Positions 22,352 to 26,687 of a stretch of 64,000 nt of DNA are shown here, piece by piece. The stretch comes from a bacterium. Its GTDB lineage: Bacteria; Fidelibacterota; Marinisomatia; Marinisomatales; UBA1611. Where the stretch lies: the NCBI GenBank assembly GCA_004321745.1, contig SGYO01000003.1, positions 1-64,000 of the forward strand, written 5' to 3'. The position numbers were made by a program, and so were the translations under genes. Under the pieces are notes generated by a model. That model was not told where the DNA came from. It ran no database searches and worked only from the letters and a program-made list of their open reading frames with translations. How positions within the stretch are numbered: position 1 is the stretch's first letter; each line of letters begins with the position of its first letter.

Positions 22352-23143
22352 ATGTTCAAACTACTTAAAAACAACCTACTTAATATTCTTGATGAGACGC
22401 AAGATGAAAGAAATATTTTAAAAAATCATATTTTATATAGCTCCATCAAAACTGAACAACATTTACATTTATTTATGGAGCACCATGTTTTTGCTGTGTG
22501 GGACTTTATGTCAGTATTAAAGTCACTACAAAAAGAATTTACCTGTGTAGAAATTCCTTGGCGACCAAAACCTAATGGAAACTTGTCCAGGTTGTTAAAT
22601 GAAATTGTTCTTGCAGAAGAATCGGATATTGATAGGTTTGGACAACATCTTAGCCACTTCGAAATGTATTACCATGCCATGAAAGAAGCTGGCGCAGACA
22701 CAAAAAAGATAGAAAATTTTCTCACTGAACTGGATAGCTCTGACCTAAAAAATTCGCTTATTAAAAGCAGTGCTCCAAAAGCTGCTAAAGATTTTGTTTT
22801 AGGTACATTTAGATATGTAGACATGAATAAACCGCACCTTACTGCAACAATTTTTACTTTAGGAAGAGAAGAAATAATCCCCGATATGTTTCGTGAACTT
22901 GTAGAAGATCTTGAAAGTAACTCTTCTGGCCAATATAAATCTTTCATCTATTATCTTGACAGACATATTGGTCTTGATGAGGATGAACACACACCGTTAG
23001 CATTAAAAATGATCAAAGAGATATGTGGAGATGATGAACAAAAATGGAAAGAAAGTATAGATTGCGGCAAAAACGTTATGAGATCAAGAATAAAATTTTG
23101 GGATCAAATTTTATATGAAATAAAAAAAACAGACACTAACTAG
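22352..23143 (+). CDS. DUF3050 protein (heme-oxygenase-like fold)
   Basis: 263 residues matching DUF3050 along the whole length: HLFMEHHVFAVWDFMSVLKSLQ near residues 39-60, VEIPWRPKPNGNLSRLLNEIV, then FTLGREEIIPDMF and YLDRHIGLDEDEHTPLAL. The fold is heme-oxygenase-like, a superfamily that includes non-heme di-iron oxygenases. Candidate metal residues are Glu43/His44-45, Glu89/90, Glu173/174, His205, Asp209 and His213, but the exact ligand set is my guess. It is translationally close to gcvP (2 nt) and its stop overlaps the convergent mtaB stop by 8 nt. The reaction is unknown. Confidence 0.82.
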   Translation: MFKLLKNNLLNILDETQDERNILKNHILYSSIKTEQHLHLFMEHHVFAVWDFMSVLKSLQKEFTCVEIPWRPKPNGNLSRLLNEIVLAEESDIDRFGQHLSHFEMYYHAMKEAGADTKKIENFLTELDSSDLKNSLIKSSAPKAAKDFVLGTFRYVDMNKPHLTATIFTLGREEIIPDMFRELVEDLESNSSGQYKSFIYYLDRHIGLDEDEHTPLALKMIKEICGDDEQKWKESIDCGKNVMRSRIKFWDQILYEIKKTDTN

Positions 23144-24443: not shown

Positions 24444-24533
24444 TAAAAAATTTAAAATATGTTTCGTTCTAAGAAAATATTGAGAGCTAAATTTAAATCC
24501 TTATTATTTTTAAAGATAAAGGAAATAAATATT

Positions 24534-25814
24534 ATGAGTAAAAATTTAAAAAGCGTAATAACCTGCGATCTGGATGGTAAAGTTGAAACGTTTAGTGAAG
24601 GTGCGCAGCAATTATTCGGATATACAGAAGAAGAAATTATTGGCAAAGTTAGAGTGAGCGATTTCAGTGCTGGTCAAATTGTATTAGGGCATGTAGTTAA
24701 TTGGCTTGCAGAGTCCGTTGAAAAAGGAGTTTGGGAAGGCAACACTGTTTTTTTACACAAAGACGGAACTGAAATGCCTTGCAAAATTAAAATCACACCC
24801 ACCAAAGATAAGGAAGGTAACCACATCGGCTATTGTGGTGTAACCTCTCCACTATCTGATAAGTCGGCAGATGAAGTCCGTCCAAAAATCAGTTTTGGAA
24901 CAAAGCTATTCAGTTGGATGGTGATAATGAGACTACCATTTTTAACTGCAACTATTGTCCCAATCCTTTTAGGAGCAGCTGTAGCAAGTAGATTTGTAAG
25001 TATTGATTGGTTTTATTTTACTTTAACAATGTTAGGCGGATTTTTATTGCACATAGGTACAAACACATCGAATGACTATTACGACCACACTAGTGGGACA
25101 GATGAAGCAAATTACAACTACATGGTGCCTTTTTCAGGAGGCAGTAGGAGTATTCAAATGGGACTTATCTCAGCTAAAGGTATGTTAAATGTTGCTATAA
25201 TAACTTTTGCTTTAAGTGCTATTGTTGGTATACCTCTTATTTACAAAGCAGGCATAAACATCTTGTATCTTGGGATCGTTGGATTTCTTTCCGGTCTTTT
25301 TTATACAGCTCCACCATTTAGATTTGCATCTAGGAAAGGAATGGGAGAACTTTTAATAGGGTTAAATTTTGGACCTCTAATGGTTGCTGGTAGTTTTCTT
25401 GTGCAAACAGGTGGTGACATGACCCACATCATGGATGCAGTATTTGCAGGGATACCAATAGGCTTTCTAGTAGCTGCTATAGTTTTCGTTAATCAATTTC
25501 CTGATCATGATGGTGATAAAGCAACCGGCAAAAATAATTTAGTAGTTGTTTTTGGGCCAGAGAAAGCGAGGATAGGATATGTTGCATTAATCATAGGGGC
25601 GTTTGTTAGCATAATTGCATTATCCTGGACTAACCCACTGACTTTCCCAACATTATCTCTTGTATCGTTAATAACATCAGTTTACAGTATTTTTACAATA
25701 AAAACATTATACAAACATTATGACAATAGATTATTACAGCCCGCTAATGCAGGAACTATTGGATTACACTTCCTAACGGGGTTATTTTTCTGTGCCGGTA
25801 TATGGCTAGGATAA
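24534..25814 (+). CDS. PAS domain fused to UbiA-family (MenA-like) prenyltransferase
   Basis: Residues about 5-108 form a PAS sensor domain (VITCDLDGKVETFSEGAQQLFGY, with the EEEIIGK and HKDGTEMPCKI hallmarks). From about 120 to the end is an eight- or nine-TM UbiA prenyltransferase with both Mg-prenyl-diphosphate motifs: TSNDYYDHTSGTD (first) and NQFPDHDGDKATGKNNLVV (second). The NDYYD-x3-GTD and N(E/Q)FPD forms are those of MenA/MqnP-like enzymes that prenylate naphthoate acceptors on the way to menaquinone. A PAS module fused to this enzyme is unusual. An upstream ATG (24459) exists, but ATG 24534 has GGAAA about 10 nt before it and starts right at the PAS domain. A CADD-like gene follows after 29 nt. 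Confidence 0.9.
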   Translation: MSKNLKSVITCDLDGKVETFSEGAQQLFGYTEEEIIGKVRVSDFSAGQIVLGHVVNWLAESVEKGVWEGNTVFLHKDGTEMPCKIKITPTKDKEGNHIGYCGVTSPLSDKSADEVRPKISFGTKLFSWMVIMRLPFLTATIVPILLGAAVASRFVSIDWFYFTLTMLGGFLLHIGTNTSNDYYDHTSGTDEANYNYMVPFSGGSRSIQMGLISAKGMLNVAIITFALSAIVGIPLIYKAGINILYLGIVGFLSGLFYTAPPFRFASRKGMGELLIGLNFGPLMVAGSFLVQTGGDMTHIMDAVFAGIPIGFLVAAIVFVNQFPDHDGDKATGKNNLVVVFGPEKARIGYVALIIGAFVSIIALSWTNPLTFPTLSLVSLITSVYSIFTIKTLYKHYDNRLLQPANAGTIGLHFLTGLFFCAGIWLG

Positions 25815-25843
25815 TTTAAATCATTTAACGTTTGGAGTACTGT

Positions 25844-26518
25844 ATGAACAAAATTGAATTTTTAAATATAATTGAAAACAAAATTGAAGAGCATCATTTA
25901 TTAAACCACTCTTTTTATAAAGCTTGGAATGCAGGTGAATTAGATCGATCTACTATTCAAGAATATGCTGCCCAATACTTTAAGCATGTTTCTGCTTTCC
26001 CTAGATATTTATCATCAATCCACTCAAACTGTGATGATATATCAGTAAGACAAGAAATTCTAGAAAACTTAATCGATGAGGAGCGTGGTGATGAAAATCA
26101 TCCAGAATTATGGATGCGTTTTGCAGAAGGCATGGGTAAAAAAAGAGAAGATGTAAAAAATACTGTTGCAATAAAAGAAACTAAAGAGCTAGTGGACAAT
26201 TTTATGAAACTATCAAAAGACGAGCGTTACCATGTTGGATTCAGTGCTCTTTATTGTTATGAATCTATGATCCCTGAAATTGCCGAAAATAAAATTGACG
26301 GTTTAAAGAAATATTACGGTGCTAAAAATGGTGAGGATACATTAAAGTTCTTTGAGGTGCATCAATCAGCAGATATCATTCACAGGCAAGTTATTAAAGA
26401 TTTAATTGGCGATGTTTGTGATACTGATGAAAAGAAAGAAGAAGCGCTAGAAGCTATTGAACTTGCATTATCTTCTTTAAACAATTTCCTCTCAGGAATG
26501 GAAAGAGTCTACTGTTAG
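25844..26518 (+). CDS. CADD-like heme-oxygenase-fold di-metal protein, possible p-aminobenzoate synthase
   Basis: Protein of 224 residues in the TenA/PqqC/CADD superfamily. The ligand pattern of Chlamydia CADD (Glu81, His88, Glu142, His174, Asp178, His181) reappears as Glu79, His86 (ERGDENHPELWMRF), Glu140 (YCYESMIPE), and His173/Asp177/His180 (VHQSADIIH). Tyr25 and Lys150 fall where CADD has Tyr27 and Lys152, the residues reported to be consumed in self-sacrificing pABA formation. I therefore infer pABA supply for folate. PqqC or a thiaminase are less likely. The start is the ATG at 25844 with GGAG 6 nt upstream, rather than the TTG at 25832. Confidence 0.82.
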   Translation: MNKIEFLNIIENKIEEHHLLNHSFYKAWNAGELDRSTIQEYAAQYFKHVSAFPRYLSSIHSNCDDISVRQEILENLIDEERGDENHPELWMRFAEGMGKKREDVKNTVAIKETKELVDNFMKLSKDERYHVGFSALYCYESMIPEIAENKIDGLKKYYGAKNGEDTLKFFEVHQSADIIHRQVIKDLIGDVCDTDEKKEEALEAIELALSSLNNFLSGMERVYC

Positions 26519-26531
26519 GTATAGATTAATA

Positions 26532-26687
26532 TTATGAGCGTCGGTCCTCTTCAGAACGGCGCTCATCTTGTCTCCTATCTTCATCAGTTCTTCTATTATT
26601 TTCAACTGTTACATTGCTTACTCTTCGATCGGCATTTCTGCGGTCATCACTTCGTCTATCGTCACTGAGTGTTCTTTTTTCAGACAT
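26532..26687 (-). CDS. Small, highly charged DRR-repeat protein
   Basis: Predicted protein of 51 residues, almost all Asp, Arg, Glu, Ser and Asn. It carries repeated DRR/ERR units: DDRRSDDRRNADRR in the first half and NRRTDEDRRQDERRSEEDRR in the second, split by VSNVTVEN. No TM, signal or Cys. The start at 26687 is preferred over 26741 because a GGA-containing site (TAGGAATACGAATATG) precedes it and because the longer form would run through the hairpin at 26716-26744. The function is unknown. Similar Arg/Asp repeat peptides can be disordered and RNA- or membrane-associated, which is conjecture here. The TerB-like gene is upstream on the same strand, across a terminator. Confidence 0.6.
   Translation of the reverse strand: MSEKRTLSDDRRSDDRRNADRRVSNVTVENNRRTDEDRRQDERRSEEDRRS

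Follow-up and report, generated by a model that had tools for sequence, protein, structure and literature searches.

The CADD/PabS-family gene and its surroundings

The window, the whole stretch of 64,000 nucleotides analysed here, belongs to the genome of an uncultured Marinimicrobia/SAR406 bacterium (NCBI Fidelibacterota; 1.75 Mb, 92% complete), and loci 99% and 93% identical, together with the surrounding tree, place it in uncultured Marinimicrobia. The features at the locus are as follows.

24459 to 25814, plus strand: gene for a PAS domain joined to a MenA-like UbiA prenyltransferase, recognised by domain matches, with 29 nt between its end and the pABA synthase gene
25834 to 25837, plus strand: Shine-Dalgarno-like GGAG, read from the sequence, 6 nt upstream of the ATG at 25844
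25844 to 26518, plus strand: gene for a predicted self-sacrificing p-aminobenzoate (pABA) synthase of the CADD/PabS family, 224 aa, assigned by TIGR04305, PDB relatives, invariant residues and an AlphaFold model with Foldseek

The open reading frame comprises an ATG start, 224 codons and a TAG stop. The ATG at 25844 is favoured over an in-frame TTG at 25832 because of the GGAG that precedes it. Scanning for promoters and terminators yielded no signal exceeding that of shuffled sequences.

Membership of the known and widespread CADD/PabS family, whose mechanism is known from homologues, is well supported by sequence comparison. TIGR04305 (fol_rel_CADD, "CADD family putative folate metabolism protein") matches the protein over its full length (residues 6-220) with 276.3 bits against a cut-off of 200 (E = 1.5e-82), and we find nothing that distinguishes the protein from this family. 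It is the sole NCBIfam model above its own cut-off; the PqqC model TIGR02111 (58.3 bits, cut-off 240) and the BesC model NF042919 (52.1 bits, cut-off 500) score far below theirs, while the Pfam families PF03070 and PF14518 both match. Among solved structures searched with phmmer, the closest relative is 9pj4, a 4-aminobenzoate synthase (E 1.2e-52), followed by 1rcw (4e-46) and 8va9 (7e-46), all of them pABA synthases.

Catalytic residues and predicted structure

The initial annotation had aligned the protein by eye with CADD (CT610) of Chlamydia trachomatis, and phmmer alignments reproduce that assignment residue by residue. The six CADD ligands Glu81, His88, Glu142, His174, Asp178 and His181 correspond to Glu79, His86, Glu140, His173, Asp177 and His180, with an offset of two and then of one, and make up a dimetal site of three histidines and three carboxylates. 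The residues consumed in CADD, Tyr27 and Lys152, fall at Tyr25 and Lys150, and Tyr141 falls at Tyr139, directly before the ligand Glu140. Tyr41 and Trp90 stand for CADD Tyr43 and Trp92, and Tyr45 for Tyr45 of NePabS (NE1434), the biochemically characterised enzyme of Nitrosomonas europaea that rescues an E. coli pabABC deletion (PMC11965152). In NePabS the aromatic residues Y41, Y45 and W99 are required for activity, mutation of Tyr45 reducing it (PMC11965152), and their counterparts Y41, Y45 and W90 are all present here. No substitution occurs at the eight key residues (the six ligands, Tyr25 and Lys150) or at Tyr41, Tyr45 and Trp90 in an alignment of 16 sequences from the same order, nor, leaving aside one X and one truncated sequence, among 81 family members. 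Given the E value of the family match, the agreement with CADD is far beyond chance.

An AlphaFold2 model, built on the alignment of those 16 sequences, has a pLDDT of 92.7 and a pTM of 0.89 and adopts the seven-helix heme-oxygenase-like fold of CADD. With Foldseek, the top hits are the Mn/Mn and Fe/Mn forms of CADD (TM 0.89-0.90, rmsd 1.7-2.0); the model superposes on Fe/Mn CADD with a TM of 0.90, and 8va9 aligns at a TM of 0.90 and an rmsd of 1.7 over 219 columns, and about 38% of the structurally aligned residues are identical. PqqC, BesC and UndA structures rank after CADD, at TM values of about 0.76-0.89. The initial annotation had proposed that a model placing Tyr25 and Lys150 far from the metals would speak against the assignment; this reasoning is invalid, since CADD itself keeps Tyr27 and Lys152 about 14 A away from its metals and acts on them through radical transfer over a long range (PMC13108848).

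A mixed pair at the metal-selecting positions

Absent from the initial annotation is Phe169, found where CADD has Tyr170 and NePabS has Phe177. The metal-selecting pair of the window enzyme is thus Tyr139/Phe169, present in neither characterised wild-type enzyme and identical to that of the NePabS variant F148Y. CADD (Tyr/Tyr) uses Mn/Fe and NePabS (Phe/Phe) prefers Fe/Fe, whereas F148Y works with Fe/Fe as well as Mn/Fe (PMC11965152), and by analogy the window enzyme is predicted to work with either. The window enzyme shares with CADD all metal ligands, the consumed residues and the Tyr at the Y141 position, and CADD likewise replaces PabABC; with NePabS, which we identify with 9pj4 from peptide sequences in common, it shares the metal ligands, the consumed Tyr25 and Lys (159 in NePabS), Tyr41, Tyr45, the Trp and the Phe at the F177 position, differing in having Tyr139 in place of Phe148.

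Of 81 sequences, 75 carry Tyr/Phe at these positions, five Tyr/Tyr and one Phe/Tyr, in a sample biased towards the nearest relatives and in part towards Tyr, as one search pattern contained Tyr beside the ligand Glu. Within the order, the sequences of family f9 are Tyr/Tyr. These counts are a lead that the mixed state may be the commonest in the family. A wider reading, which we hold only tentatively, is that most natural members carry the mixed pair, that the Tyr/Tyr and Phe/Phe enzymes studied so far are the exceptions, that the usual synthase works with Fe/Fe or Mn/Fe, and that it replaced PabAB in several separate Marinimicrobia lineages.

Folate genes of the source genome and apparent replacement of PabB

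The source genome encodes DHPS (FolP), HPPK (FolK) and FolB, the last adjoining FolK; because these are present, the organism needs pABA. The initial annotation had raised a bypass of PabABC, and the search of the organism's own genome for pabA, pabB and pabC agrees with it: no PabB is found in the 92% that is complete, and TrpE, which scores 553 bits against a cut-off of 517.7 and has TrpG as its neighbour, is the sole chorismate-binding protein. The sole class-IV aminotransferase is below every cut-off; models of branched-chain transaminase fit it better than those of PabC.

The same exclusion extends across the order, where 130 genomes were searched for TIGR04305, PabB and DHPS. Length, the active-site motif (PGGS[IV][TS]G[AC]PK in PabB, PAGTVTGAPK in TrpE) and, for seven proteins, NCBIfam ranking served to tell PabB from TrpE. 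TIGR04305 is above its cut-off in 44 genomes, and a further four carry a copy that is partial, broken or scores slightly lower, giving 48; PabB is present in 18 and DHPS above cut-off in 118. Not one of the 130 holds both the CADD-family gene and PabB (hypergeometric P about 1e-4, a value that is indicative only and overstates the case, the genomes being related and not independent). Counted by genus, a single one of 38 (g33) has the two genes, in different species (P about 0.03, likewise indicative only).

Nor was PabB found in 43 further gene-carrying genomes, drawn from the loci with relatives in GTDB contigs, for which there are no completeness figures; they are mostly of other phyla and include cyanobacteria, Acidobacteriota, Kapabacteria, Myxococcota and a Marine Group III archaeon. 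Twenty of them lack any match to a PabB-type search, all 19 strong matches have the length (476-567 aa) and motif of TrpE, and those of the weaker matches that were read individually resemble isochorismate or salicylate synthases. The family thus appears to replace the usual pathway in the source bacterium and in at least 43 other genomes.

Three further observations were made in the order. Among 45 near-complete Marinimicrobia genomes, 23 have DHPS and neither PabB nor the CADD-family gene; these may take up pABA or use another, unrecognised route. Three members of family f9 with genomes of 0.6-1.0 Mb (G019, G020 and G035) carry CADD-family copies interrupted by stop codons or frame breaks, which may mean that streamlined relatives have lost the route or that the assemblies contain errors. 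A second heme-oxygenase-like family that matches TIGR04305 weakly (35-59 bits) occurs at five loci (G095:C24, G096:C5, G109:C23, G115:C49 and G123:C14), one of them in a genome of the window's genus without the CADD-family gene.

Neighbouring genes

The pABA synthase gene of the window adjoins a prenyltransferase gene and not a folate gene; in an Oligoflexia MAG, folK and then folP follow the CADD-family gene. The PAS-UbiA gene is possibly co-transcribed with the pABA synthase gene and is not needed for the pABA mechanism. The two are adjacent only in the window's genus and in one other genome (G120), and lie apart elsewhere in the order. We considered PAS-UbiA as a functional partner and rejected it since the gene context is not conserved; a UbiA fusion of a different type, near folP in the small-genome family f9, was likewise rejected as a link to pABA, as an unrelated gene lies between.

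Neither isochorismate synthase nor MqnA was found in the source genome. Across the order, strong PAS-UbiA homologues occur in 55 genomes and an isochorismate-synthase-like gene in 17, with both in none (P about 4e-5, for related genomes).

Two more reading frames lie close by. At 22352-23143 (+), directly after gcvP and 2.7 kb upstream of the pABA synthase gene, a DUF3050 protein (PF11251, 312 bits) is encoded; PMC4520260 places its family in the heme oxygenase clan and uses CADD to model it, making the protein a putative second dimetal oxidase near the pABA synthase gene. At 26532-26687 (-), a 51-aa reading frame rich in DRR repeats converges on the pABA synthase gene and is conserved at this position in no fewer than 13 related loci.

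Distribution and history of the family

Relatives are encoded at no fewer than 504 loci in GTDB contigs. In a tree of 95 sequences (midpoint root, some long branches) the sequences of the order are split: a main clade of 28 includes that of the window, those of family f9 stand beside an alphaproteobacterium, near Rickettsiales and Paracaedibacteraceae, and those of families f11 and f14 lie among Acidobacteriota and Chloroflexota. These scattered positions suggest that the family entered the order by transfer in several separate lineages. Viral contigs contain no family member; as to phages and plasmids as carriers, their matches are PqqC-like or other distant heme-oxygenase-like proteins of 22-28% identity, and this candidate was set aside.

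Discussion

We consider it very probable that the gene encodes a self-sacrificing pABA synthase that feeds FolP in an organism lacking the PabAB route. The chemistry would be that worked out in the homologues (PMC11965152, PMC13108848). The seven-helix heme-oxygenase-like bundle would bind two metals through Glu79, His86, Glu140, His173, Asp177 and His180, and from O2 and a reductant an oxidant would be generated at the metal centre, with the Tyr139/Phe169 pair allowing the use of Fe/Fe or Mn/Fe. A hole would then hop along aromatic residues, for which Tyr139, Trp90, Tyr45 and Tyr41 are candidates, to Tyr25, whose side chain would be cut off, leaving a glycine behind. The ring would be oxidised to the carboxylate with oxygen from O2 and aminated by the nitrogen of Lys150, a residue expected to end as aminoadipate, so that each protein molecule would yield at most one pABA, which would pass to FolP, and would then be spent.

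Could the protein instead be a heme-oxygenase-like dimetal oxidase of the PqqC, BesC or TenA type that acts on an external small molecule and merely resembles CADD? PqqC, BesC, UndA and TenA have the fold in common with it, the dimetal oxidases among them the metal site as well, PF03070 and PF14518 match, and the first three superpose on the model. Yet these enzymes take external substrates and, to our knowledge, lack the sacrificial Tyr/Lys pair, whereas here TIGR04305 alone exceeds its cut-off, Tyr25 and Lys150 do not vary among 81 members apart from one whose end is truncated, and PabB is missing wherever gene-bearing genomes were checked. We regard such an oxidase as very unlikely. Only slightly less improbable is that the protein can make pABA without being its physiological source, the organism instead salvaging pABA from seawater or encoding PabB in the missing 8% of its genome. 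The 23 near-complete relatives with FolP and with neither gene do point to salvage or some other route in the order, but all six members of the genus that carry the gene have it intact, its catalytic residues are invariant in aligned relatives, and PabB is lacking in all 48 genomes of the order with the gene and in the 43 others. This pattern across the order makes it unlikely that a PabB hides in the missing part of the source genome.

The adjacent PAS-UbiA gene raises the thought that the synthase supplies an aromatic head group for prenylation and not for folate. Yeast Coq2 prenylates pABA, the two genes are 29 nt apart, and neither isochorismate synthase nor MqnA was found in the genome to point to an acceptor for the MenA-like enzyme. 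Nevertheless, the adjacency is confined to one genus and one further genome, PAS-UbiA is also found with PabB or with neither gene, and FolP, FolK and FolB are there and need pABA, leaving this service to the prenyltransferase a highly improbable role. Synthesis of pABA for FolP is thus the reading we retain.

That the gene is of the CADD type, as the initial annotation held, is borne out by the family model, the solved relatives and the structure model. The occurrence outside Chlamydia that it emphasised is not new, as NePabS of Nitrosomonas europaea was already characterised. Homologues outside Chlamydia have been listed from Wolbachia, Rickettsia, Chloroflexi and Sphingomonas (PMC11965152). 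With the enzyme already known there, the details added here are modest; a literature search of limited reach found no earlier report of CADD homologues in SAR406. CADD sits in a cluster of folate genes, and an effect on host apoptosis has been reported for it. As far as known, neither applies to the presumably free-living marine bacterium of the window.

Few known biosynthetic routes are as odd as one that spends a protein on a single molecule of a vitamin precursor. That this route appears to replace PabAB in SAR406 lineages and in many other phyla suggests that it is a common aerobic option and no peculiarity of intracellular parasites. Free-living models are gained in which the choice of metal can be tested, and the supply of pABA in an abundant, uncultured marine group becomes a concrete question.
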